A DNA stretch of 29,248 bases, taken from a virus. Under the pieces are notes generated by a model, which did no database searches, was not told the origin of the DNA, and saw only the letters and a list, made by a program, of their open reading frames with translations. Where the stretch lies: the IMG/VR virus record IMGVR_UViG_3300029319_000035, positions 1-29,248 of that record. One strand, given 5' to 3'. How positions within the stretch are numbered: position 1 is the first letter of the stretch; every line of letters begins with the position of its first letter. The translations under genes were made by a program, and so were the position numbers. This document shows, piece after piece, positions 1,686 to 29,248 of this stretch.

Positions 1686-1853
1686 ATGTACAAATCAACT
1701 AGACTTACACCCGATTACTGGCGATACCTTATAAGAGTGAAGGGGCGTACGTTAACGCGTCGTCACTTCCACAATGTGCTTTCCTCGTCTATAGGAATGC
1801 GCCGAGAGGTTCTACACAGAATATACGAAGAGGTCTTCAGTGCAAGAGCTTAG
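1686..1853 (+). CDS. Small basic protein, 55 aa, operon leader
   Basis: This short gene has the best ribosome site of the region, AAGGAGG five bases before ATG 1686; an upstream in-frame GTG at 1650 lies before the transcription start and is not used. The product is arginine-rich (about 11 Arg in 55 residues) with a predicted helical tail (RREVLHRIYEEVFSAR). I know no family for it. It is the first gene after the promoter at 1631-1659 and overlaps the start of the C5-methyltransferase by 14 bases, so the two are probably translated together. Small size, basic charge and its place next to iteron-like repeats would fit a DNA-binding regulator, but nothing proves that. Confidence 0.7.
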   Translation: MYKSTRLTPDYWRYLIRVKGRTLTRRHFHNVLSSSIGMRREVLHRIYEEVFSARA

Positions 1854-3093
1854 AATAGGGTCACTATTCAGTGGTATAGGTGCACTGGATTTAGGCTTAC
1901 ACGAGCTGCTGAAATGCAAAACAGAGTGGTTCGTTGAGCAGAATGAATACTGTCAACAAGTACTTGAAAAGCGTTTCCCTGGCACACCTATATATAATGA
2001 CGTGACAAGCATCACAGGATACAACCTGGCCTCGATTGATATACTTGTTGGTGGCTTTCCCTGCCAAGACTTATCGGTAGCTGGCCAAGGTGCAGGTATC
2101 AAGGAGGGCACACGCTCTGGTTTGTTCTTCGAGATGTGGCGTTTAGCTGAGGTCCTGCAGCCTCGGTTTGTATTGTTCGAGAATGTCCCTGCGATAATGA
2201 CGCGGGGTATAGACACAGTAACAGATACCATCGTATCATCTGGCTGGACAGTGGAGTGGTTTCACTTAGCTGCATCCGATATAGGTGCTTGGCACAAACG
2301 TGAACGTTGGTGGGCTGTAGCTCATAGAGAGCAGCCTTTGTTCAACAACTACATCCAGATAGGTTACAACGACAACGGGTGGAAGAGTTTACAGCACGAC
2401 TTGTTTTCGAGTTCATCTCGTATAGAGAAGTATCCAAAGTCAGGTATGGCAAGTGGCACGTCTTTATATAGTCGTCCTCACTCTCCAAGTTTGGAAGGAA
2501 CACTTCCCACACCAACACAGGACAGTGCTTCAGGTCGCAAGAAGATGTACAAGCAGGGTGGAATGCCATTGACAGTAGCGGTTCGTTATCCAACGCCAAC
2601 AGCTACTGACTACAAAGATGGTGGCTCGGAGCACAGTATCAAGACACAGGTGAAACGAAAGGGTACAGGGGTGAGGCTTGGTTCATACGTTCCAGCTTCA
2701 GAGAACCAGCTATTGCCAACTCCTGTTCGTGGTGATGGTCACAAGCTGGGCAGCAATACGCTGTCTCGATACATAGAATCAGGTGGTCGTCGTTATTCTG
2801 CTGATGACCACCGAGGCACAGGTGAACCGATAGAGTGGTTGCCTGGAAAGCTTAATCCAGATTGGGTAGAGCCATTGATGGGTCTGCCATCAGGCTACAC
2901 TGATCTGGACCAAGACATAGAGCCAGGTTTGGTAAGTATCCAGTCTTGGTTGGATGGTAGTTGGGAAACTGACATACCGAGATTAACAGAGAAGAAGAAG
3001 AACCGAGTAGCCCGTGTGAAAGCGTTGGGTAACAGTGTAGTACCTCAGTGTGCACGTTCAGCTTTTTCAGTTTTACGGAGGAGATATGAGTAG
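1840..3093 (+). CDS. C5-cytosine DNA methyltransferase
   Basis: The enzyme transfers a methyl group from S-adenosylmethionine to carbon 5 of cytosine. All landmark motifs are present: motif I SLFSGIGALDLGL (8-20), motif IV GGFPCQDLS with catalytic Cys75, motif VI ENV (114-116), motif VIII in IGAWHKRERWW, and motif X RVKALGNSVVPQ near the C terminus. Between VIII and X lies a variable target-recognition region containing three LPTPT-like strands and the typical LNPDWVEPLMGLP. The length of 417 residues is normal for phage members. The start is GTG at 1840, with GAAGAGG before it. No restriction endonuclease is adjacent, so it is an orphan enzyme; protection of phage DNA from host restriction is the likely role (inference). 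It overlaps the next methyltransferase gene by 8 bases. Confidence 0.95.
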   Translation: MQELRIGSLFSGIGALDLGLHELLKCKTEWFVEQNEYCQQVLEKRFPGTPIYNDVTSITGYNLASIDILVGGFPCQDLSVAGQGAGIKEGTRSGLFFEMWRLAEVLQPRFVLFENVPAIMTRGIDTVTDTIVSSGWTVEWFHLAASDIGAWHKRERWWAVAHREQPLFNNYIQIGYNDNGWKSLQHDLFSSSSRIEKYPKSGMASGTSLYSRPHSPSLEGTLPTPTQDSASGRKKMYKQGGMPLTVAVRYPTPTATDYKDGGSEHSIKTQVKRKGTGVRLGSYVPASENQLLPTPVRGDGHKLGSNTLSRYIESGGRRYSADDHRGTGEPIEWLPGKLNPDWVEPLMGLPSGYTDLDQDIEPGLVSIQSWLDGSWETDIPRLTEKKKNRVARVKALGNSVVPQCARSAFSVLRRRYE

Positions 3094-3670
3094 TAAAACG
3101 AGCTTGATGCTTGGCGCAAGCAATCCAAAAGAGGAGCGTCATCCAGAAGATTATTATGCAACAGAGCCGGTTGCACTTGAGAAGCTACTGAAGGCGATCG
3201 ACTTTGATCTTCATCAGATGGTTTGGGAGTGTGCTTGTGGCGGTGGTCATTTGGTAGACGTGTTGATCAAGAACAATCATTATGTACTGGCGACAGACAT
3301 AGTAAACCGTAATGACCGGGCGATGTTGGAGGTAGACTTCTTGCAAGCTCAGTCACGTTGGAGGGGAGATATCCTGACCAATCCTCCGTTCAAATCAGCG
3401 GAGGCATTTGTAAAGAAGGGCCTAGAGATTTTGAATCCTGGTCGTTATTTGATACTGTTCCAGCGCATAATGTTTTTGGAGAGTTCAAAAAGATTTGAAC
3501 TTTTCAAGAAGCATCCACCCAAGTATGTGTATGTGCACTCGTCCAGGGTAGCGATAGCAAAGGGTGGAGATTTTGAAAAATACGAAGGTGGTGGCAAGAA
3601 TATGTGCTACGCCTGGTTTGTTTGGCAGAAGGGCTGTCAAGCGGAAACAATAGTGAGGTGGATAAAATGA
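3086..3670 (+). CDS. SAM-dependent DNA N-methyltransferase (NPPF type)
   Basis: This 194-residue protein has the class I methyltransferase fold markers: motif I WECACGGGHL, the acidic end of strand 2 in LATDI, and the catalytic motif IV TNPPF (about residues 94-98) followed by KSAEAFVKKGLEIL. NPP[YF] enzymes methylate exocyclic amino groups of adenine or cytosine. It lacks a sizeable recognition domain, as do many compact phage enzymes. ATG 3086 is preceded by GGAGGAG with a rather short spacer and overlaps the end of the C5-methyltransferase by 8 bases, so translation is coupled. Together the two would give the phage genome two kinds of modified base. The substrate (adenine or cytosine, DNA or RNA) cannot be decided from sequence alone. 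Confidence 0.88.
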   Translation: MSSKTSLMLGASNPKEERHPEDYYATEPVALEKLLKAIDFDLHQMVWECACGGGHLVDVLIKNNHYVLATDIVNRNDRAMLEVDFLQAQSRWRGDILTNPPFKSAEAFVKKGLEILNPGRYLILFQRIMFLESSKRFELFKKHPPKYVYVHSSRVAIAKGGDFEKYEGGGKNMCYAWFVWQKGCQAETIVRWIK

Positions 3671-5198: not shown

Positions 5199-7931
5199 TC
5201 AACCTTTATCAGTCTCATAATCGTAAAGATCTTCAGGTATCAGCCAAGTTGTGACCTTCTGATTACCATACCTGGTTTGCCCGATGGGTTTGACACCCAT
5301 AGCTGACAAAATCTCTCCGGCGCGTTTGGCAGCTTTCCGGTCCTGTTGCTTTGCAGGTATCTCGAGTACATCTTGTAGTATCTCTCTGATGTATACGTAC
5401 CGTGCTTTTTTGAGCTTTTTCTCGGTGACATCTCGAAGTCCTTTGAGATTTTTGAAGTTGTCCCATTTGATTTTACAATGTGAGCTGATGTATGGCAGCC
5501 AGGGATCTTGGGAAGCGAACTGTCTATTGAAGTCTTGCTGTCTTTGTTCGATATGTTTTGGAAACCAGTTTTGTCTATCAGGTCCTCTTTGAGCGTACTC
5601 ACCTTCTCCATAGATACAGTGCATAGCTCTAGCGTAAATGTATGGCAGATCTCTTCTGAGTTCATCTATTCTGATCATACCGCCTAGTCCGACACGGAAC
5701 GCCATAAATCGTCGAGAGCCTGTTGGATCTGACAGGAAGCCTAGCTGATCGATGTTTGAGTTACCGACCAGTACCCAAGAGGCGTCAATGGTGGAGACGT
5801 TTGCTTCGTACGGCTTACGGATTTTGAAACGTGGGTTTGAGATAAATCCTTTGATAACTTCGTATCCGTGTTCCAGCAGTGTATTACACTCGTCGAATTC
5901 ATAGAGTGCGCATCCAGCGAGGACGAGTTTGGCGTCTTTGCTCTTGAGGTCCAGATCTCCACGAGAGAAGTAGTCCTTTTCGATAGCGAGTAGTTCGGTA
6001 GAGATTGACTTCCCGCATCCTTGAGGTCCGATTTTAATTGGAAGGAGTTGCCATTCGCATCCAGGTTCAATCTGTCTCATACAAAAACCTTTACAGAACA
6101 TACGGCCGTATAGACTGATAAGTTCGTTGTGCTTGTCCTTGTTCGGTCCATCAGGTATCTCTGCTCTGTAATAGTATGTGTACAGGTTCTCAGGTCTTGC
6201 GTGGTCAGGTGCTTGAGACATATCCAAATTGAACCGCCATTCATTTAACTGATCTCGGACAGGATGATAAGAGTGTTTAGATGCAGCATAGTTGATACTC
6301 TTCCCGACAGTAGATAAGGGAAACTCGAGCTGTTCGTAGTTGCGTTGAATGAACAGCAGTGTTTCCATAGTCAGGTTGTCATTGATTGGTTGGCCATCAA
6401 CTTCAACAACTCCAGCAAACTCATTGTATTTGAACTTGCCCTGGAGACGCTTGTCATCCTGTAGAATGTTGTGCAGGTTGAGGATAACAGCTTTGATTTC
6501 GCCTTCTCCAATTTTGACGCCTTTCTCCATAATGGCTTTTCGGAACAGCTCAACATCGGGGTCTGCCCCTTCCATTTCAATCATTGGTTCAACGCCGACA
6601 GCCTGAAGTTCTGAGCCTCGTAATCTGATATCGATAGCTGCTCTAAGTTTCCGTGCGACCTTGGCACAACCGTGTAAAGCTTGAAGCCTGTAGAAGTACT
6701 TCTCTGCTTCCATTGGTACGTATTTAAAAGCGATAGCCAGGTCTTCAACGTAGTCAAACAGGTCAACGATTGTATTTATTCGATCAGCTCTCTTGGCATC
6801 CTCCAGTGCTTCAAAGGTATTCTTGAGTAGCTGCAAGGCTTTTTCCCCAACAATCTTTTCGTAGTTGGGGTAGTTGGTCACCTTCTCTTCGATGTGTGAT
6901 ACATCGTGTTCTTTGTCGAGGAAAAAGTCGTTGATGTCTCCTTCTCCGAGCATCAGTCTTTTTGGTACAAGAGGGTAGATAGCTTTGGCAATCTTCTCAG
7001 CGTACTCATCGCCCTTCTCATCGTTGTGGGTAGCAATGATTACTTCAGCAGCAGCGGGGAACTTGAACTGTCTGAATGCAGGTATAGAACCATTTTTGAT
7101 TCCCATCACGGGGTTGGTCACTCCTTTTGACTTGAGGCAGATGAAGTCCATCTCTCCTTCCACGATCCAGAAGCGATTGAATGACGATTCATTTCTGAGG
7201 AACTGTCTCATTTGTTCGCAAGCGAAGAACAGTCCAGACATAGAGTATCCGATTGGGCACATTGTCTTTGGTCGATCTTTCAGCTTCTCGACAGCTCGTC
7301 CCTGAAAACTTTTTAGGTTACCCAAACTGTCGACGAGTGGGACACACAGTGGGTATTCCTGTGCCCATTTCCAGGGCCAGAATGGCATACGTCGTCCAGA
7401 AGATGTCTCTACCTTCGTTAGAGTATTGTAGTGGAAACTGATTGGCATCACGTATGCTTCAGTGACATTATATGGGTTTATACCTCTTCTCTGTAGGAAT
7501 TTATCTATTTTGTCTGGAGTTCCATCTGCGGCAACAGGTTGTTTTCTTATTTGTTGCCATAGTGCTTTCAGGTCTTGAGAAGGCACTTCTTCCTTCTGGA
7601 AAGAAGGCACTTCGAAGCTAGTAAACTCTTTTGTTTTGAAGAAGTCTTTAATAGCGGAGTAGTCTTGGACATCTCTGCACTTCACGCCTTCCAGTGAATA
7701 TGCAACGAGGTCCATCATATCTCCCCCGGCTTGGCATCTAAAGCACGTCCAACCAGTCGAGTTTGTACCACGTACTATTCCTATTGGTGGGCGTTTATCC
7801 TTTGTGCCGACTTGTTCAGCACCGCAGGCAGGGCAGGGTGTCCATCTTTTACCTTTACAGGACATCCCAAGATTTCCAGCAACGCTCTCAAAACTAGAGT
7901 TTAACTTTGCTTTCCTAATCCAATCACTCAT
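5199..7931 (-). CDS. Primase-helicase (zinc finger, TOPRIM, VirE/SF3-like ATPase)
   Basis: A 910-residue replication protein expected to synthesise primers and unwind DNA at the phage fork. Domains in order: a CHC2-type zinc finger with C33, C36, C63 and C66 (CPAC and CFRC) followed by GGDMMDLV; a TOPRIM region with EGEMDF at 258-263, HNDEKGDEY near 302-310 and GDINDFF at 331-337; a helical linker; and a C-terminal helicase ATPase with Walker A GPQGCGKS (635-642), Walker B ALYEFDE (675-681), sensor VGNSN (722-726) and a likely arginine finger in GSRRF (738-742). The last domain resembles the VirE / phage D5-like family rather than DnaB. The start is ATG 7931 with AAGGAGG five bases upstream; the frame is open to 8003 but that part precedes the ribosome site. 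It is transcribed alone from the promoter at 7975-8003. Confidence 0.93.
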   Translation of the reverse strand: MSDWIRKAKLNSSFESVAGNLGMSCKGKRWTPCPACGAEQVGTKDKRPPIGIVRGTNSTGWTCFRCQAGGDMMDLVAYSLEGVKCRDVQDYSAIKDFFKTKEFTSFEVPSFQKEEVPSQDLKALWQQIRKQPVAADGTPDKIDKFLQRRGINPYNVTEAYVMPISFHYNTLTKVETSSGRRMPFWPWKWAQEYPLCVPLVDSLGNLKSFQGRAVEKLKDRPKTMCPIGYSMSGLFFACEQMRQFLRNESSFNRFWIVEGEMDFICLKSKGVTNPVMGIKNGSIPAFRQFKFPAAAEVIIATHNDEKGDEYAEKIAKAIYPLVPKRLMLGEGDINDFFLDKEHDVSHIEEKVTNYPNYEKIVGEKALQLLKNTFEALEDAKRADRINTIVDLFDYVEDLAIAFKYVPMEAEKYFYRLQALHGCAKVARKLRAAIDIRLRGSELQAVGVEPMIEMEGADPDVELFRKAIMEKGVKIGEGEIKAVILNLHNILQDDKRLQGKFKYNEFAGVVEVDGQPINDNLTMETLLFIQRNYEQLEFPLSTVGKSINYAASKHSYHPVRDQLNEWRFNLDMSQAPDHARPENLYTYYYRAEIPDGPNKDKHNELISLYGRMFCKGFCMRQIEPGCEWQLLPIKIGPQGCGKSISTELLAIEKDYFSRGDLDLKSKDAKLVLAGCALYEFDECNTLLEHGYEVIKGFISNPRFKIRKPYEANVSTIDASWVLVGNSNIDQLGFLSDPTGSRRFMAFRVGLGGMIRIDELRRDLPYIYARAMHCIYGEGEYAQRGPDRQNWFPKHIEQRQQDFNRQFASQDPWLPYISSHCKIKWDNFKNLKGLRDVTEKKLKKARYVYIREILQDVLEIPAKQQDRKAAKRAGEILSAMGVKPIGQTRYGNQKVTTWLIPEDLYDYETDKG

Positions 7932-7948
7932 TTTTTCCTCCTTGTTGT

Positions 7949-8003
7949 TTGCAAATGTAGTTGATTGTGTATACATTGTATGTACAAACCATTTGGTTTG
8001 CAA
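7949..8003. promoter_or_regulatory. Divergent face-to-face promoters with operator-like palindromes
   Basis: Leftward promoter: TTGCAA (8003-7998), 17-base spacer, TACAAT (7980-7975), driving the primase-helicase. Rightward promoter: TTGCAA (7949-7954), 17-base spacer, TACATT (7972-7977), driving the RHH gene at 8027. The two -10 elements overlap, so both cannot be used at once on one molecule. The palindrome TGTATACA (7968-7975) and an inverted repeat CAAACC/GGTTTG (7985-7990 and 7995-8000) lie within the block. Part of this sequence recurs in the promoter at 10192-10230. Confidence 0.7.
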
Positions 8004-13418: not shown

Positions 13419-13450
13419 CCCTCACCTTTCCCCAAGGTGGGGGTTTTTTT
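13419..13450 (+). terminator. Strong rho-independent terminator of the rightward operon
   Basis: A 10-base stem, CCCTCACCTT (13419-13428) with AAGGTGGGGG (13434-13443), contains one G-T pair and a 5-base loop, and is followed by seven T residues (13444-13450). It ends the 10251-13393 operon and separates it from the converging late genes, whose last stop is at 13449. Confidence 0.93.
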
Positions 13451-14024
13451 AATCTTCTAACAATGTATAGCTGAAGCTGTTCCCATAAAGGTCAGCACTT
13501 ATCCTACACAGCTCCATAAACACTCTGTAATCATTTGGATCAGCAAACACTTGGCATCCTGCGCTCCACTTATCTACCTGAGTACTGGTCCGAACGGAAG
13601 AGGCACGATGAATGTTTATACCAAAATAACCCTGCTCGATGTCTTCAGGGTTGTGTTCCAAGATCTCGTCCTTGTCAGCATCGCGATACACCTTGACTTG
13701 TCCTCCTGTTTGCACAAGAGCCTCGTATTGGCCTTTGTGTTTCCCAAGTTGCCAAGTCCCTCTATACTGACCTGGGCACAAGATAGCAGTACCAGAAACA
13801 CGACTTGGATTTACTAGCCAGTACTTACCAGGGTCTGTAGTGACCGGAAAGGACAGTTCTACCCATTTGCCAGCACTGTCCTTGTACACACAGTGCAAAG
13901 TATCATCAAAGGCATTTGCAGTTGATTCTGGGCTTCTTACACCTATTAGGTTTAGATTGTAAGAACCTGTTTTAAAAACAACGTATCCTTCTCTTTCAGC
14001 TCGTTGTAGTATATCTGGTATCAT
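13449..14024 (-). CDS. L,D-transpeptidase-like protein, possible endolysin
   Basis: A 191-residue protein related to a family common in marine and other tailed phages. The C-terminal part has the signature of the YkuD catalytic fold: H139 in INIHRASS and C157 in DKWSAGCQVF, with S154 before it, close to the HXnSxGC pattern of L,D-transpeptidases and carboxypeptidases. A substrate in the peptidoglycan stem peptide is therefore likely, and a lysis function follows by inference from the late position near a holin-like gene. The first residues (GYVVFKTGSYNLNLIGVRS) match the usual beginning of the family. ATG 14024 is preceded by AAAGAGG; ATG 14060, overlapping the upstream stop as ATGA, and ATG 14096 are longer alternatives. 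There is no signal peptide. Confidence 0.8.
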   Translation of the reverse strand: MIPDILQRAEREGYVVFKTGSYNLNLIGVRSPESTANAFDDTLHCVYKDSAGKWVELSFPVTTDPGKYWLVNPSRVSGTAILCPGQYRGTWQLGKHKGQYEALVQTGGQVKVYRDADKDEILEHNPEDIEQGYFGINIHRASSVRTSTQVDKWSAGCQVFADPNDYRVFMELCRISADLYGNSFSYTLLED

Positions 14025-14056
14025 TTCGACCTCTTTCCTAAGAACCGCGCCGAGCA

Positions 14057-14353
14057 TCATTTTCTTCTCGCTGACTTTGCGCCCTTGCATTTCCATTTTT
14101 TTCGGGACAGATTGTTTGGTGAATTAGGGTCACGGGCCTTCTTGGCCGACTTGCCACCCTTCTTAATCATTTCCTTTTTTATACCTAGCGACCGAGCACA
14201 ATACGAGTCACCCTTAGATGTCCCTGGACGTATTCGATCACCGCCGCCTTTGGCTTTACCTGCTTGACCGTAGCTGACCTTTCTCTTTCGGCCAGTTTTC
14301 TTGTTCTTTACGACCTTAACAAATCGTTTTCCTTTCGATGGTTTCGCAGCCAT
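14057..14353 (-). CDS. Basic phage-conserved protein (DUF6321-like), 98 aa
   Basis: A Lys/Arg/Gly-rich 98-residue protein. The segments RKVSYGQAGKAKGGGDRIRP, TSKGDSYCARS and DPNSPNNLSRKKWKC are typical of a widespread phage family that I associate with DUF6321, whose function is unknown. Only two cysteines remain (C52 in SYCARS and C88 in KWKCKG), whereas relatives I recall have more, so a zinc site is doubtful. AGAGG precedes ATG 14353, two bases after the stop of the previous gene. It belongs to the block of basic proteins 14057-15063; binding or packaging of DNA in the capsid would fit the charge but is not shown. Confidence 0.8.
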   Translation of the reverse strand: MAAKPSKGKRFVKVVKNKKTGRKRKVSYGQAGKAKGGGDRIRPGTSKGDSYCARSLGIKKEMIKKGGKSAKKARDPNSPNNLSRKKWKCKGAKSARRK

Positions 14354-14355
14354 AG

Positions 14356-14598
14356 TTACCTCTTCTTACCTTTGTGAAGACCGTGCTTCGCGTGTTGCTT
14401 ACCTTTTTTGGTAGCTGCTCTCTTCTTTCTGTTCGCAGCTGCTAATTTGGCACGACCCTTCTTTGTAGACTTCAACCGATCAATGGTTTTCTTCGGAGCG
14501 TACACCTCTCCCGTTTTCCCAGATGGTTTACCGCTGGGAGTCGTCCACTTTTGCTTCGTCCATTTTTTTAGACTCTTTTGGCTTTTCTTGAGAGGCAT
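14356..14598 (-). CDS. Basic phage-conserved protein (DUF5872-like), 80 aa
   Basis: An 80-residue Lys-rich protein containing WTTPSGKPSGKTGEVYAPKK, TIDRLKSTKKGRAKL and GKQHAKHGLHKGKKR. This combination is highly characteristic of a phage protein family that I associate with DUF5872, of unknown function, typically found beside other tiny basic genes. The start ATG 14598 overlaps the upstream stop by one base (TAATG). The predicted charge is very high, so association with nucleic acid is likely but unproven. Confidence 0.85.
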   Translation of the reverse strand: MPLKKSQKSLKKWTKQKWTTPSGKPSGKTGEVYAPKKTIDRLKSTKKGRAKLAAANRKKRAATKKGKQHAKHGLHKGKKR

Positions 14599-14738
14599 TA
14601 CTTCTTCTTTGCTTTCTTGGTTCTCTTTCCGTTACCAACGACTTTTTGCAATGCCTTAGCTTGAGCAGCGTGTGACTTAGATGCCTTCTTAAGTCCCTTG
14701 ATAACCTTCTTTATCTTTGCTTTCTTTTGCTTTTTCAT
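14598..14738 (-). CDS. Tiny Lys-rich phage protein, 46 aa
   Basis: A short gene from ATG 14738 to TAA 14598. The product (KKVIKGLKKASKSHAAQAKA, then LQKVVGNGKRTKKAKKK) matches a tiny protein that recurs in many phage genomes next to the DUF5872-like gene. About 40% of residues are lysine. It overlaps its neighbours as ATGA upstream and TAATG downstream, so this is a single translationally coupled block. Function unknown; an amphipathic helix with many Lys is the visible structure. Confidence 0.8.
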   Translation of the reverse strand: MKKQKKAKIKKVIKGLKKASKSHAAQAKALQKVVGNGKRTKKAKKK

Positions 14739-14914
14739 TTGTATCCACCGCCCTTGGCTTTGTATTCCTTAGCAAGCATTTGCGCCTTGCGAGCAGACCA
14801 CTGACCTGGCTTGCCACCTTTTCCACCACGTTTAATCTTTTCAAAGAGGCGTTTGCGCATTGTAGGCTTGGTGTAATTACCAGCTTTGTTGACTGTACTT
14901 TTCTTTTTTGGCAT
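14735..14914 (-). CDS. Tiny basic phage protein, 59 aa, Gly/Lys-rich
   Basis: From ATG 14914 to TGA 14735. The sequence contains VNKAGNYTKPTMRKRLFEKI, GGKGGKPGQW and SARKAQMLAKEYKAKGGGYK, a strongly conserved phage signature found in many marine and other tailed-phage genomes and of unknown role. The strict conservation of the GQWSARKAQ part suggests a specific partner rather than general charge. It overlaps both neighbours (TGATG and ATGA). Confidence 0.85.
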   Translation of the reverse strand: MPKKKSTVNKAGNYTKPTMRKRLFEKIKRGGKGGKPGQWSARKAQMLAKEYKAKGGGYK

Positions 14915-15063
14915 CAGTATCTCCGCTTACCTACTTTTTTGTTTGCCTTCGTTCTCTGTCCTCGCTTAGGTAAAGACGGCTTCTTTTTTTTCTTAGCAGA
15001 CATAGTTTTTTTCTTCGGTGGACGTCCACGTTTACTACCGTATGTTCCAGGTCCTTTAGGCAT
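14914..15063 (-). CDS. Tiny basic protein with AT-hook-like motif, 49 aa
   Basis: From ATG 15063 to TGA 14914. The N terminus MPKGPGTYGSKRGRPPKKKT carries RGRP flanked by lysines, the core of an AT-hook that binds the minor groove of AT-rich DNA; the rest is Lys/Arg-rich. The opening GPGTYGS is itself a recurrent phage sequence. It overlaps the end of the RecU-like gene by 8 bases, so it is probably co-expressed with it. The DNA binding is inference from the motif. Confidence 0.8.
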   Translation of the reverse strand: MPKGPGTYGSKRGRPPKKKTMSAKKKKKPSLPKRGQRTKANKKVGKRRY

Positions 15064-15580
15064 TACAATTCTCCAATTTTTCTTTCCATTCTAACAAAGG
15101 GGTTAGCCAATCATAGTTAGGGTTCTCAGGTTCTTTTTTTATCCAAGGAAGAGCACCCATTTCAATAAGATCTTCCAATCCTATTGTAGCACGAGCTTCC
15201 CAGAATGGTTTTAGCATTATCCAAGGAATACACCACCTGCTTCGGTCGTGCATTCTTAGAAGCACACAAGCAAGACCCTTTTGTCCCTCGTGTTTATCGA
15301 AGTCGGCAGCCTGATGTTTTTTTAAATTCCAAGTGCTCCACCGCTTAGACTTTGAGTCTTTATCATCACCCAAAATGCTCAATCCATTACAAAGTACAAT
15401 CCAGTCGGGAGGGCCTTTCCCTGTGCGCACAGCTAGAAAAGACCCCTTGTTACCCTTTTTGCCTGGCCCAATCTTAAGTATAGGGGGGTTCATCCGCATC
15501 CAGTGTATAAGGCCATCCTGTTGCAACTTATTGCGAGAGTTATTACAAACCCTCTCCCAGACTATCCCTCTTCCAGCCAT
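15056..15580 (-). CDS. RecU-like Holliday-junction resolvase (PD-(D/E)XK nuclease)
   Basis: A 174-residue protein. The nuclease core is visible: GPPDW (56-60) with D59, then ILGDDKDSKSKRW with D72-x-K74, followed by KKHQ with HQ at 89-90, and a later segment IPWIMLKPFW. This follows the RecU pattern, in which DxK or ExK is followed by a polar pair, a bend and HQ. RecU resolves four-way DNA junctions and is used by phages to clear branched DNA before packaging. ATG 15580 has no strong ribosome site. It stands between virion genes and the small basic proteins, in the leftward late operon. Assignment to RecU is from motifs only; a related Vsr- or VRR-like nuclease is possible. Confidence 0.78.
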   Translation of the reverse strand: MAGRGIVWERVCNNSRNKLQQDGLIHWMRMNPPILKIGPGKKGNKGSFLAVRTGKGPPDWIVLCNGLSILGDDKDSKSKRWSTWNLKKHQAADFDKHEGQKGLACVLLRMHDRSRWCIPWIMLKPFWEARATIGLEDLIEMGALPWIKKEPENPNYDWLTPLLEWKEKLENCNA

Positions 15581-23234: not shown

Positions 23235-26200
23235 TTACTGTAGGTCACCAGATTTTTCTTCTGCTTCCCTTAGTTCTTGGCGAACCCCTCTAATTACTCT
23301 CAACTGCTCTACCAGCTCAGTTCGCAACGCTTTCGGCGGAACGGACATAACTTCCAAGAAAGATTCAAAATCAGTGTAACCAAGACGGGTTTCAGAAGGC
23401 TCACCCAAAACTTTACTTTTGAAAGTGCTTGTTAAAAACCTAGTTTGTTTCTGTGGTCTACCAAATACTAGATTCGTTCCTGGAAACGAAGTAAGCGTTT
23501 CCAAAGAAAGGTAGTATAGAAATACATCTATAGTTTCTTCGGGAACATAAAAGATATCATCACCACGAACAGAATCTTCATACTCATACTTTCTTCTTTT
23601 CATATTGATAAATCCTTTCGTGTTCGTTGGATTTTCACTTGAAAAATTAAACAATGGATACAGCTTGTTCATAGCTTCCATCTGTCTCTGCGAAACTCTA
23701 ATTTGGCTAAGATCCATATTGTTAAACAGTTGCTTGGACATAGCCAATTCAAACACCATCTTGATAAGTGGTGTACTCTGATTTACAGCATATGCTGCAG
23801 TACCACCTAACAAATTCTTTAATACGTCTTCATAGAAGAACTCTTTTGCTGTTCCACCTTGGAGGGCTTTTTGTAGTCCACCGCGCATCATTTCTACAAA
23901 TGGAGCAACCATCATTGCGGAATCAGCAACACCAACCATAGGCCAAATATGAACCTTTTGACCGTATACGTCTTCATAATACCAAACGTCGTGAGGCTCT
24001 TGAAAATCAAAAACACCGCCCTTAGACATTATTCTTGGTCTAAGATAATCAGGTAGCATTCTATACTCGTATCCTCTTTCGTCTTGAGATGTAGCTTCCC
24101 TTTGCGAGTTCCGGATAAAACGGAGAACACCCATAACCCTTGCAGGATTGTTCATTAAGGCCCTGGTAACTTGAATTTGGTTTTTTCTCATATACGCGTA
24201 GAATAAAAAGACTTGTCGTAAATATGTCTTCTCAAAATCAGTTAAAGCAGCGTAATCATAGTATGTATCACGTACGACCTTTGCGGCTTCTGCTCCTGAT
24301 TTCCCCTTGTTTATCTCATCCATAAACAATGCAAATCTGAATATATTGTCTGTAGCTGCAGCCAATTCTGACCAAAAGTCTACATATGCTTCACCAAGGG
24401 CGTAGAGCTTATACAATCCTTTTGGATTCTTTTGTCTCAAATCGTCGATAACACTTTGTCCCAGCTCCGTAGTAATGAAAGAGCCTCCAATACCGTGCTT
24501 CTGAGCTTCGTTGGCTAAACTTTCAGCTGTCCATATTCGGCCATCATCTGTAACCATAACTCGACCTTTATGGTGACCGCGCTTTCCATATTCAAAAACA
24601 CTTATCTCTTTTGGGTGTAAGAACGAAAGACCTTGCAAGTAAATGTCAACATTCAACACAGCCGTTGCAAAGTTAGAACTTATTCCTTTTATTCCTCCAT
24701 CTAAGAAGCCTTGAAACAAAGCCCCAAACATATTGTTTACGTAGTAAGCAGCAGTTCCCACAAGGAATCCAGTAGTAACCAATCGCTTCTTCATTCTGTG
24801 GTAGGCTTCAAAAACATTAAGAATGTTATTAAATGGATTACCTGAAAACCGTTGGGCTGGGTTTACTAGTCTTGAAATCGTATACGCACACACTGTAAGA
24901 GCGTCATTTACAAATTCTCTAATTGGTTTGGCTGGCTCAAGTTTTTCAGTGAGTCGTTCAGAAGCGGTTTGTGTCCTCATCTCCTTCTTTAATTCTTTAA
25001 AATACTCTCGTATTGTAAAATAGCCTTTTTCAGCTTTCGCTTGATCAATACGAGTTTTCAAGTACTGTGATGACAATTCAGCCTCAGCTAGTTGTTCTTT
25101 TGCATTTAAAGCAAAATCAAGGTCTTCATATATCGTGGTGTTAGGATCGCCACTTTTTTCAACAAGTTTGCTTTTAATGTTGTCCATTAGTCGTTGTGTG
25201 TTCGGAAACCTTGCTTCTAGTGACTCACCTAAAATCTCTTTGAGGTATTTTTGAGTTTCAAGTGCAAACTGAGTATCAATGTCTTCAACCAGTTCAGTGT
25301 TTTTAGACTCAATGTCAAATTCCTTTATCGACCTTCTAAGAGCAGGGTAGTCTGGATTTTGCTCTATAATATATTGAGTTACAAGGTGATGTAAATCTTT
25401 TGCATCAAGTTGAGGATACATCTTTAAAATTTCCTCAACCATTCTTTCCTTAATGATTTCCGACCTGGCTAAATTTTGTTGTTGCCTTTTTGTGTTGCTT
25501 TTTCTTTCAGCAAGCTCTTTTGGAGTAATTCTGGTTTTGTCTTTTGCAACTCCCAATGGCGAAACTTGCTCAGTTAGATTCAACATAATGTCATCTAGTC
25601 CAGTTGGAACAATATATTCAATCCCATCAGGGGAGGTATAACGTTGCATCTTTTTTCCTGAACTAGGTTCAATACCATATGTAGATATAATTTCACCGGC
25701 CACCTGTGTAGCCGCTATATCTAACTCTAAGAGTTCAGCATTTTCTCTTTGAGGCGGCACTAGAAATTTTCTATCTGCTGACAACAAACGAGAGTTTGGT
25801 GTGAGATTTATCCATTTATTAATTATTTGTTCTACCTTATCAATAAAGATGCTCTCTTCTACTAAAGGCTCAAAACCAATTTCTATAAGTTTCTCACGAG
25901 CCGCTTTTTGTAAATCACCATAAACGTGGATTTCAGCGATTTTACGTGAAGCCTCAGCTAGTTTTTCCTCAGCCATCAAACGAACAATCATTTCTGACAT
26001 CACCATCCCCAAATCAATTTTTGGAGTTTGAGAAAGTTTTACATCTCCACTGTCTATGCCCATTCCAATCAATGTTCTTCTGAAATAGGTTTCATCCATT
26101 GGAGCTTTGGTGGTTATTTCATTGGCGTATTTTACAATCTCTTCTGGTGTAAGCTTATCAAGATCTTTCTTAATTTTTAACGTTTTCTTCAGGTCTTCTG

Positions 26201-29200
26201 CAGCGTTAATGTTGGCACTGGATTCATTCTTAAAAGACTCCTTGAATCCAAACTGTCTATATATATTTACCAAGTCCTGAGGTGTCCATTCTTGTCCATT
26301 TATAGGCTCTTCCACAGAGTATTTAGTGGGGTTCTGCATTCTTTTTAAATCCAAGTCGCCAGGAGCAATCTTACCTTGGAAGAACAAAGTGTACGCAGTA
26401 TACAAGTCCTGAGAGCTTAATTCACCTGACGACAGTTCTTGCTTACCAACAGCAGCCTTGTAAACAATTTCCCCTCTTCTTTTAACTTGAAAGTCTTTTC
26501 TTTCTAGAGCTGTCAAAAGTATTGATATGTTTGCTGTGACTTGCTTCTTCTGGTCAGGAGACAAACTCATATTTGAGTTGTATGTCCCCAAAAACACTCC
26601 CAACTCTTCTGACGCCACTTCCTCGGCCAAGGTCAAATCAAAACCTATAATACTTTTGACTTCGTTAAAAAATCCATTTGCCCAAGTATCAATGCTTAGA
26701 ACATCTCGAGTTGAAGCTATTCTTCTGTAAATAGAAACTATTTTGTCTTGGGCTTCTTCTATCGCTGTTATTTCCTTTTTAGTCAACTCTAAAGTCTCAT
26801 TTTCGTCTCTGTCGAGAAGGTATTCTTTCAGAACCTGAAACTCCTTTGGAGCAGACTCTCCAGCAACATCAATAGCATCCATCATCGTTCGAAGCTTTAA
26901 AAGAGCATCTTTGTCTTCTAAAGCAAGCTCAAAATTCTTATCCATCATTCCTGATTTGATACCTTTAATTCTGTTTACAATGTTACGTAGCTGAGGAACT
27001 TTAACAGGATCAACAGGTGGATTGAACATCCTTTGTAGGTTTCGCCCTATCTGTACCATTGGCACACCAATCTTTCGAAGATTCTTACGCTTGGATTCTG
27101 TTAGGTTAGAACCAAAAATAGAATCAGCATAACCAATAGCCTGCTCAGAGTTTTGTTTGTCAATTAAGTTCAACACAGTTTCAATGTCTTGTGGAAGTTT
27201 TCTTAACCCTGCCTGTAGCTCGATTAAAACCTCTACAATTCTAGGATCTAGTTTCTGTTCAGTAGCAATCGCCTCTAAGCTTTTACCAGGTAAACTTGCA
27301 ACAATAGATGGGTTGTAGTTTTCAACAACTATATCAGCAACCGTGCGTATATTTTGAACTGTTGACCTTGCAATACGCCCACCAATTGCGTCAGGAATCA
27401 ATCTTGCAAGCCCATCGACGACGTTGTACAACGCACTTGTCGAAGTGCGTTCAAGAGCATTGCTTCGCTTTGCCGATATGGGAGCAGCATTATCAATTAT
27501 CGCTGGTCTTATGATATCTCCGATATCAGTCAAATATATCTTTACCCTGCCATCTCCACGTTTAGTGTCTTTAACACGACGAACAAAGCCAGCATCTAAC
27601 AATTGACGACCGGGAAGAGAGTGTGTTTTGTCAATGAAGTCGTCTAAACGAGCCTTCACTTCTGGGCCAAAAGTTACAAATGGCTGATTGAGTTTTTCTT
27701 GTTGCTCTCTGGTCATATCGAAAATGTTTTCTACATTGTCATACTTTGCTTCAGTTCCAAACTTCTCGGCTACTTGATCCATTGTTTGACCAAAGATTTT
27801 TTCCATCTTAATTCTTGCTCTGGCAGAGTACTCCTCTCGATCTTCAGCCCTTACAATTGTTCTTTGGGTTAAAGCGTGGTAATCAAAGCGTGTGTTTGCT
27901 TGTATGTGTCTGTAGTCAGCATAAGCCTCTATTCTTGCATAGAAGTCAAGTTTATCAATGGGCTTACCCTCTTTTACAAGTTGCAAAAAGGCAATGTCTA
28001 TTTCTTCGCCTGTTACTTCTTCTGGCCTGATATCATTAACATCTCTGTTCTCCCTTTGAGCAATGTTCTCTTTTGCTCTTTGGCGAGAAGGTCTTAGCTT
28101 TTCTGGATAGTTTATAGAAGGATACAAACTAGGCCGTAAGTCATTTAACAGCTCATCACGACTGGTTTTGTAGACCCTCTGACTAACTTTTGACAACGCC
28201 CTCTTGGTTTTGTTTTTCTCTTCTGCTTGTAAGATACCAAGTTCTTGAAACACCTCAACGGTTTCTAGATACGCGTTTCGAAAGTTTACAGGACTCTCTG
28301 CTGTTGATTTTAAAAGACCCTCTATTGCATCTGAATTGATAACTCCCTCTAGTTTCTGTCTTTGCTCTGCAATGCGATCCTCATTTAAAGATCGAGTGGC
28401 CGTTTCAGCTTGTCGAGTAATTTGTTTTGTTGGGTTAATTTTCAAAAGCTTTTTAAGGCCCTCTGGCATATTGCTTTTAGCACCTCGAGCAATCCTGGAA
28501 TTTAAGGCTAGGTTTAATGCAGTCTTGAAAGATTCAGTAAATCGTCTTATGCCTTCTTGTAAAACAGGATCGCCCGAGTTTTTTTCTGACATCTGAGTGT
28601 ATTCCCAAGCATCAGCAAATTCCTCTTCCCCTTTCCTAGTCATTCTGCGTTGTCCATTTTGAACAACGTGATCGAAGTATTTGGCTATTTGGTTGTATGT
28701 ATCAGGGTCTAAGAGGCTTCTTACAAGGTGACCGTGCTCGTGGAAAAAGGTTGTGATATCATAGTCTTTACCAAGTTGAATTCTAACTATGTCACCAGTG
28801 TTTACAAATGTCCCAAGTACTGTGTCTTCTTCCTTCTTGGTAAGGCGATTTTTCATTAAGAATTTGTTTTGTTCTGCTTCTGTCATCACTCCAGTGTATC
28901 GACTTACATCTATATCGTAGTCAACTGGCAGTATTGGTTCACCTGATATAAACTCTTGCTTGTTCAAAACTTCAGTTAAAAAGTTTGTGGCTCTGTCGTC
29001 AGGTATTTGTTGTAGAACTGATTTCAAAACTTGTAGCTGGTGTTCGTTCAATGGCTTTGGATTTAGCTCAAAAGCGGCTCTAAATTGCGTCAATGCTTTT
29101 TGCAGCCCCTGAGGTACAGTCATCAACCGTAAAAGGAAATTAAAGACTTCACTGCCCATTCGTGTATCGATTTCTTGAAACCCTGCATACATAGCATTCT

Positions 29201-29248
29201 GAGCTTTTTCTTGGCCTATGTATTTTTTCATTGTAGACCAAACCATCT
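23235..29248 (-). CDS. Giant virion polyprotein with HEXXH metallopeptidase-like site (partial at 5' end)
   Basis: A continuous frame of at least 2003 residues that reaches the window edge; ATG 29246 may be internal. Near the visible N terminus, residues 169-173 are HEHGH (in TTFFHEHGHLVRSL), with EEEFADAWEY about 34 residues later supplying a possible third zinc ligand: a gluzincin-like metallopeptidase site. The middle (300-1450) is charged and helical with long coiled-coil-prone stretches. A hydrophobic segment near 1490-1510 (GFLVGTAAYYVNNMFGALFQ) is followed, at about 1615-1700, by DNIFRFALFMDEINKGKSGA and DYAALTDFEKTYLRQV, which resemble the LPD38-type module of phage large polyvalent proteins. 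Such proteins are packaged and injected. Function is inferred; the protease could act on the polyprotein, the cell wall or a host protein. Confidence 0.8.
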   Translation of the reverse strand, partial: MVWSTMKKYIGQEKAQNAMYAGFQEIDTRMGSEVFNFLLRLMTVPQGLQKALTQFRAAFELNPKPLNEHQLQVLKSVLQQIPDDRATNFLTEVLNKQEFISGEPILPVDYDIDVSRYTGVMTEAEQNKFLMKNRLTKKEEDTVLGTFVNTGDIVRIQLGKDYDITTFFHEHGHLVRSLLDPDTYNQIAKYFDHVVQNGQRRMTRKGEEEFADAWEYTQMSEKNSGDPVLQEGIRRFTESFKTALNLALNSRIARGAKSNMPEGLKKLLKINPTKQITRQAETATRSLNEDRIAEQRQKLEGVINSDAIEGLLKSTAESPVNFRNAYLETVEVFQELGILQAEEKNKTKRALSKVSQRVYKTSRDELLNDLRPSLYPSINYPEKLRPSRQRAKENIAQRENRDVNDIRPEEVTGEEIDIAFLQLVKEGKPIDKLDFYARIEAYADYRHIQANTRFDYHALTQRTIVRAEDREEYSARARIKMEKIFGQTMDQVAEKFGTEAKYDNVENIFDMTREQQEKLNQPFVTFGPEVKARLDDFIDKTHSLPGRQLLDAGFVRRVKDTKRGDGRVKIYLTDIGDIIRPAIIDNAAPISAKRSNALERTSTSALYNVVDGLARLIPDAIGGRIARSTVQNIRTVADIVVENYNPSIVASLPGKSLEAIATEQKLDPRIVEVLIELQAGLRKLPQDIETVLNLIDKQNSEQAIGYADSIFGSNLTESKRKNLRKIGVPMVQIGRNLQRMFNPPVDPVKVPQLRNIVNRIKGIKSGMMDKNFELALEDKDALLKLRTMMDAIDVAGESAPKEFQVLKEYLLDRDENETLELTKKEITAIEEAQDKIVSIYRRIASTRDVLSIDTWANGFFNEVKSIIGFDLTLAEEVASEELGVFLGTYNSNMSLSPDQKKQVTANISILLTALERKDFQVKRRGEIVYKAAVGKQELSSGELSSQDLYTAYTLFFQGKIAPGDLDLKRMQNPTKYSVEEPINGQEWTPQDLVNIYRQFGFKESFKNESSANINAAEDLKKTLKIKKDLDKLTPEEIVKYANEITTKAPMDETYFRRTLIGMGIDSGDVKLSQTPKIDLGMVMSEMIVRLMAEEKLAEASRKIAEIHVYGDLQKAAREKLIEIGFEPLVEESIFIDKVEQIINKWINLTPNSRLLSADRKFLVPPQRENAELLELDIAATQVAGEIISTYGIEPSSGKKMQRYTSPDGIEYIVPTGLDDIMLNLTEQVSPLGVAKDKTRITPKELAERKSNTKRQQQNLARSEIIKERMVEEILKMYPQLDAKDLHHLVTQYIIEQNPDYPALRRSIKEFDIESKNTELVEDIDTQFALETQKYLKEILGESLEARFPNTQRLMDNIKSKLVEKSGDPNTTIYEDLDFALNAKEQLAEAELSSQYLKTRIDQAKAEKGYFTIREYFKELKKEMRTQTASERLTEKLEPAKPIREFVNDALTVCAYTISRLVNPAQRFSGNPFNNILNVFEAYHRMKKRLVTTGFLVGTAAYYVNNMFGALFQGFLDGGIKGISSNFATAVLNVDIYLQGLSFLHPKEISVFEYGKRGHHKGRVMVTDDGRIWTAESLANEAQKHGIGGSFITTELGQSVIDDLRQKNPKGLYKLYALGEAYVDFWSELAAATDNIFRFALFMDEINKGKSGAEAAKVVRDTYYDYAALTDFEKTYLRQVFLFYAYMRKNQIQVTRALMNNPARVMGVLRFIRNSQREATSQDERGYEYRMLPDYLRPRIMSKGGVFDFQEPHDVWYYEDVYGQKVHIWPMVGVADSAMMVAPFVEMMRGGLQKALQGGTAKEFFYEDVLKNLLGGTAAYAVNQSTPLIKMVFELAMSKQLFNNMDLSQIRVSQRQMEAMNKLYPLFNFSSENPTNTKGFINMKRRKYEYEDSVRGDDIFYVPEETIDVFLYYLSLETLTSFPGTNLVFGRPQKQTRFLTSTFKSKVLGEPSETRLGYTDFESFLEVMSVPPKALRTELVEQLRVIRGVRQELREAEEKSGDLQ

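Follow-up and report, generated by a model that had tools for sequence, protein, structure and literature searches.

This locus raises the question of why a phage encodes five very small, strongly basic proteins in a row, and on what these proteins act. The window analyzed here, a stretch of 29,248 nucleotides, comes from a virus record of 62,669 bases (IMG/VR IMGVR_UViG_3300029319_000035), and the block lies on the minus strand. Numbered from the low-coordinate end, the genes are P1 (14057-14353, 98 aa), P2 (14356-14598, 80 aa), P3 (14598-14738, 46 aa), P4 (14735-14914, 59 aa; GGKPGQWSARKAQ) and P5 (14914-15063, 49 aa). The initial annotation had reported five ORFs with these coordinates and sizes, overlapping, abutting or two bases apart and all rich in Lys/Arg, and each of these points was confirmed: the spacing was +2 bases for P1/P2, -1 for P2/P3, -4 for P3/P4 and -1 for P4/P5, and the K+R content was 36, 36, 43, 32 and 43% for P1 to P5, respectively. 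When 42 hand-picked genes of the window were ranked by net charge per residue, P1–P5 took the first five places, and an equally charged run of five appeared in 3 of 50,000 shuffles of the order of these genes.

Along the minus strand, the order of genes was RecU-like gene, P5, P4, P3, P2, P1 and endolysin-like gene. The gene for a RecU-like Holliday junction resolvase (15056-15580, minus strand), a neighbor outside the set, overlaps P5 by 8 bases. The downstream endolysin-like gene (13449-14096, minus strand) matched phrog_33083 (endolysin, E 1.3e-15) and phrog_3000 (E 5.3e-36) and overlaps P1 by 40 bases, given its first ATG as the start. In the full record, the terminase large subunit is encoded at 54829-56298 on the same strand as the block, which places the block far down a minus strand region with structural genes.

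P4 and P2 form an obligate pair. P4 belongs to phrog_17747 (E 2.3e-35) and P2 to phrog_14910 (E 2.7e-17). At least 596 relatives of P4 were found in IMG/VR, the best 80 of which made up the P4 locus set (n = 83) after addition of two phage records and the window. P2 was encoded on the strand of P4 in 82 of the 83 loci, the sole exception being a locus that ends just past P4 (L080). The distance from the P4 stop to the P2 start was at most 4 bases or an overlap in 43 loci, at most 300 bases in 22, at most 1500 bases in 15 and larger in two. In the reverse direction, P4 was found in 72 of 80 P2-seeded loci; seven of the eight misses had P2 about 510 bases or less from the locus edge, and one (L216) was a true miss. 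The loci of each scan were the best 80 and mutually related, and Fisher and binomial values are therefore descriptive. Both genes were present in 20/20 cultured phage records found, pelagiphages and HMO-2011 included, and every matched feature in these records was annotated 'hypothetical protein'. The HMO-2011 group is called dominant in the consulted part of PMC9038755. A tblastn search of phages with the P2 of the window gave no match, probably due to the low-complexity filter, and a search with a P2 relative matched 14 phage records.

The proposal that the five genes are a conserved module consequently stands for P4 and P2 and falls for P1, P3 and P5, which assort separately. Of the signatures thought to be strictly conserved, GQWSARKAQM was nearly so in the form GQWSARKAQ (73-row alignment), and WTTPSGKPSG was not, most relatives having W[R/G/T]TKSGK.

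P4 and P2 are two halves of one protein made elsewhere as a single chain. Bacterial and archaeal genomes were scanned with one genome per species (84,980 species), and the best 80 of 392 P4 relatives were kept. Many of these 80 matches were phage-like loci that encode P4 and P2 as separate genes; 34 bacterial loci had P4 followed by P2 in a single ORF, and seven loci of Pelagibacteraceae (SAR11) had the reversed order, P2 followed by P4, in one ORF. Isolates carrying the P4-P2 fusion belong to Fibrella, Spirosoma, Corallococcus, Hymenobacter and Occallatibacter. In viruses, both halves were located in one ORF in 60 of the best 80 loci obtained with the fused profile. The linking of phrog_17747 and phrog_14910, listed as separate families, as halves of one protein is new here.

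The fusion corresponds to Pfam DUF5872 (PF19197), whose listed function is unknown. One bacterial fusion (L132) scored 29.5 bits against PF19197 at a cut-off of 27.5 and contains the P4 and P2 regions as detected by the profiles of this study, whereas the fusions of L122, L156 and L160 scored below the cut-off. An Azospirillum relative carries the NCBI name DUF5872, and PF19197 was matched by 3 of 71 P2 relatives. Neither P4 nor P2 of the window matched PF19197 at the curated cut-off, and a six-frame search of 25 phage records with this profile gave 0 matches, which indicates that the phage halves escape the DUF5872 profile. Homology of L132 over both halves, taken together with the lack of a profile match for the window proteins, makes P4 and P2 split relatives of DUF5872 and not members by profile. 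A search of the open PMC literature found no functional study, with DUF5872 appearing as a table label in one paper and DUF6321, the family related to P1, being absent. An algal virus is listed with a DUF5872 protein in the consulted part of PMC12085832.

P1, P3 and P5 are independent cassettes, as judged from the loci seeded with P1 and P5. P4 or P2 was present in 0/80 P1-seeded loci, 37 of which were at least 8 kb long, and a strict five-gene module was rejected on this ground; among P5-seeded loci, P4 was found in 8/80 and P2 in 13/80. Kin of P1 were detected in 14 of the 82 other P4 loci, the P5 start motif in 12 and kin of P3 in eight, and all five genes occurred together in one (L071). 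The P3 count was obtained with single-sequence phmmer, used instead of an iterated P3 profile that drifted onto P4 through composition and was discarded. P3 was fused in front of P4 in four loci (L020, L070, L075 and L079).

P5 had 239 relatives in IMG/VR. Its GPGTYGS signature was recovered in part: GTYG was common to the relatives, and the usual form was GKGTYG. The AT-hook-like RGRP did not prove to be a family feature, occurring in the window copy only, and a role of P5 as an AT-hook was rejected since the 12 other P5 relatives among the P4 loci had, by eye, xGRP with x not being R. Both Cys residues of P1 were kept in 80/80 relatives, in 73 as CAR and in seven otherwise (CSR in the five printed). 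PF19846 (DUF6321) was matched by 9 of 14 aligned P1 relatives, and the P1 of the window had no Pfam match at cut-off, PF19846 included. In marine phages, P2 or P4 was also joined to other unnamed small modules (L014, 5761-7125; L046, 5762-6268; L034, 1636-1926; L042, 5800-6162), as though such cassettes were drawn from a pool and could be exchanged.

The genomic surroundings were examined along with the question of whether the five genes travel together with RecU-like genes. The neighbor in the window passes PF03838 (30.8 bits, cut-off 25), but profiling found PF03838 in only 1 of the 50 records searched, the window phage itself, so that the co-conservation did not materialize and the RecU link was rejected for the sampled relatives. 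Terminase large subunit was the commonest PHROG label among 142 proteins near P4 (11 members in its leading family); next in rank were ferredoxin, head-tail adaptor, portal, virion structural protein, ribonucleotide reductase and endolysin. Terminase lay within 3.5 kb downstream of P4 in at least 18 of the 58 loci with enough flank (three seeds), the expectation being based on an assumed 50-kb genome. The commonest neighbor of the viral fusions was the major head protein (12/110). Near P1 relatives, DNA repair exonuclease (9/62) and terminase (8/62) were the commonest, and three terminase profiles detected terminase in 12 of 80 P1 loci.

For the bacterial fusions, Pfam tallies of 113 neighbors revealed no common operon, and a shared operon was rejected, DUF6321 appearing twice among these neighbors. 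At the level of genomes, DUF6321 was present in 6/16 with the fusion versus 5/198 without it (a phylum draw in which phyla were mixed), and within one family in 2/3 with the fusion versus 8/197. In SAR11, the reversed fusion abuts a TspO gene, with genes for a short-chain dehydrogenase, CMAS, DUF1365 and DUF3833 nearby, a set which we take to be that of a singlet-oxygen stress regulon. In L145, L157 and L165 (near 5740-6626), the reversed fusion overlaps the start of the TspO-family gene by one base, and thus the two may be co-translated in SAR11.

Among the named phages, pelagiphage HTVC033P (L176) contains a seven-gene basic block, gp36–gp42, in which gp42 is P4, gp41 is P3-like, gp39 is P2 and gp36 is P1-like, and gp38 resembles, by eye, the end of the P5 of L071. 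This block is flanked by other late-strand genes on one side and an amidase gene on the other, a location that matches that of the window block, and a run as charged was obtained in 0 of 20,000 shuffles. Elsewhere in its genome, HTVC033P has two more very small and highly basic genes, gp57 and gp81, the latter abutting the terminase large subunit gene gp82. In HTVC027P, gp52 is a P1-like gene; it is not named in the consulted parts of the transcriptome paper on this phage (PMC12753301).

Several features bear on the function of the proteins. Lys/Ala/Pro-rich, histone-H1-like tails were present on 10 of the 34 bacterial fusions versus 2 of 678 other ORFs of those loci, as counted with a second, looser criterion (6/34 versus 6/845 with the stricter one). 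The two other tailed ORFs, in L125 and L153, were DUF6321 genes that precede the fusion by 9-12 bases. The fusion of L156 contains Rho_N above the cut-off and SAP below threshold, in L063 an HNH_3 domain is fused to P4, and a fold search retrieved a phage ParB/Sulfiredoxin protein of 1022 aa, part of which resembles P4 (60% identity over 48 columns). AlphaFold2 predicted two helices for P4 (mean pLDDT 80.9) and a less certain structure for the fusion (pLDDT 75.6, pTM 0.44), and for neither was a usable match obtained in PDB and fold searches. Nucleic acid as the target is suggested by the charge, the tails and the fused motifs, and the position of the genes points to the time of head formation and packaging.

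On indirect evidence, P1–P5 probably bind nucleic acid of some kind. As the best, still tentative, explanation, it is quite possible that they are late cationic proteins which attach to phage DNA or condense it at about the time of packaging, with P4 and P2 serving as one split protein. The core would be a two-piece DUF5872-type protein, in which P4 provides a predicted helical hairpin with a near-invariant GG.PGQWSARKAQ loop and P2 a basic half containing Trp. We infer that P4 and P2 may act jointly, binding phage DNA late in infection, and they could condense, shield or handle progeny genomes around packaging, with P1, P3 and P5 filling the same slot as putative interchangeable basic cassettes. 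Presence of the proteins in the virion itself appears doubtful. It is distinctly unlikely that a 'chromatin' exists across a large group of marine phages, in which the genome would be packaged with phage-encoded basic proteins, a split form of a bacterial nucleoid protein (DUF5872) would form the core, P4 and P2 would reassemble on DNA and P1, P3 and P5 would be exchangeable subunits. Counted against the best explanation were the tails found on only 10 of the 34 fusions, the lack of a fold match, the placement in S-EIV1, where the P4/P2 pair lies away from annotated structural genes, and some metabolic neighbors (ferredoxin and ribonucleotide reductase). Bacteria use the protein without a phage too, and packaging therefore cannot be its only role.

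The occurrence of the same protein on the chromosomes of many bacteria and of SAR11, a phage host, would agree with a different target, the host nucleoid or its transcription. The phage genes would then be copies of a host DNA-binding protein that silence, protect or reorganize the host chromosome and take no part in packaging, and the SAR11 copy beside TspO and its presumed stress regulon would fit such an origin. However, host takeover genes are usually early, and the genes of the block sit among packaging, head and lysis genes, which makes a host target unlikely. The proteins might instead bind RNA or the ribosome and aid late translation in the manner of small basic ribosomal proteins, as their size, their Lys/Gly-rich composition and the Rho_N of L156 (Rho_N binds RNA in Rho) would allow. 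The similarity between P2 and ribosomal protein L24 was weak and at chance level (E 0.99), though, and no family match to ribosomal proteins was obtained; with the tails being H1-like and the partners including HNH and ParB, such a function seems quite improbable.

Cationic peptides acting on the envelope or assisting lysis were considered because of the endolysin or amidase gene adjoining the block in the window and in HTVC033P and the lysozyme gene beside the fused gene in S-CRES1. Inspection by eye gave no membrane-segment signal, terminase or head genes are the neighbors instead in many loci and there are copies on bacterial chromosomes, all of which renders this role very improbable. That the ORFs, all five short and of low complexity, arose by chance in low-complexity DNA has practically no likelihood and is refuted for P4, P2, P1 and P5 by relatives in the hundreds, P3 having kin in eight loci.

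Other genes of the window were noted as well. Two adjoining plus strand ORFs (1840-3093 and 3050-3670) presumably encode cytosine-5 and N6-adenine DNA methyltransferase-like proteins, as judged by motif (PCQ and NPPF). A gene for a VapE-like/Toprim primase-helicase (5199-8003, minus strand) is the lone one of its orientation among plus strand genes. An ORF of 2003 aa (23235-29246, minus strand) runs up to the window end and has, by eye, an HExGH zinc-protease-like motif; it is perhaps an internal virion protein.

Binding of phage DNA around packaging by a split protein would be of interest for a widespread gene pair, with at least 596 P4 relatives in IMG/VR and all 20 cultured phage records found. 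The link to a bacterial protein by fusion, split and permutation makes the relation of the two partners testable and offers a first functional lead for DUF5872. According to the consulted part of PMC3281028, phage DNA is thought to be neutralized mainly by cations and polyamines, with no evidence of a large share of basic proteins; if the proteins studied here were in virions, this view of a small share would need revision.

Compared with known families, P4 and P2 are members of phrog_17747 and phrog_14910, whose PHROG labels are unknown function. The invariant Cys-Ala-Arg and W-x-C motifs are common to the P1 of the window and its relatives matching PF19846 (DUF6321), the identity to that branch being 29-37%. 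The histone-H1-like nucleoid proteins of bacteria have Lys/Ala/Pro-rich tails similar in style to those on some bacterial fusions, whereas the phage genes are without such repeats, and P4 and P2 are conserved domains. The basic proteins packaged by PBCV-1 are likewise virus-encoded and associated with virion DNA, as described in the consulted part of PMC3281028, in a eukaryotic virus, while the proteins of the window are known here from their genes; identity with the PBCV basic adaptor was rejected, PF08789 being above the cut-off in 0/25 records. DUF5872, a family of bacteria and algal viruses, is homologous to the pair of the window across both halves, in contrast to which the window phage distributes them over two genes with P3 in between.
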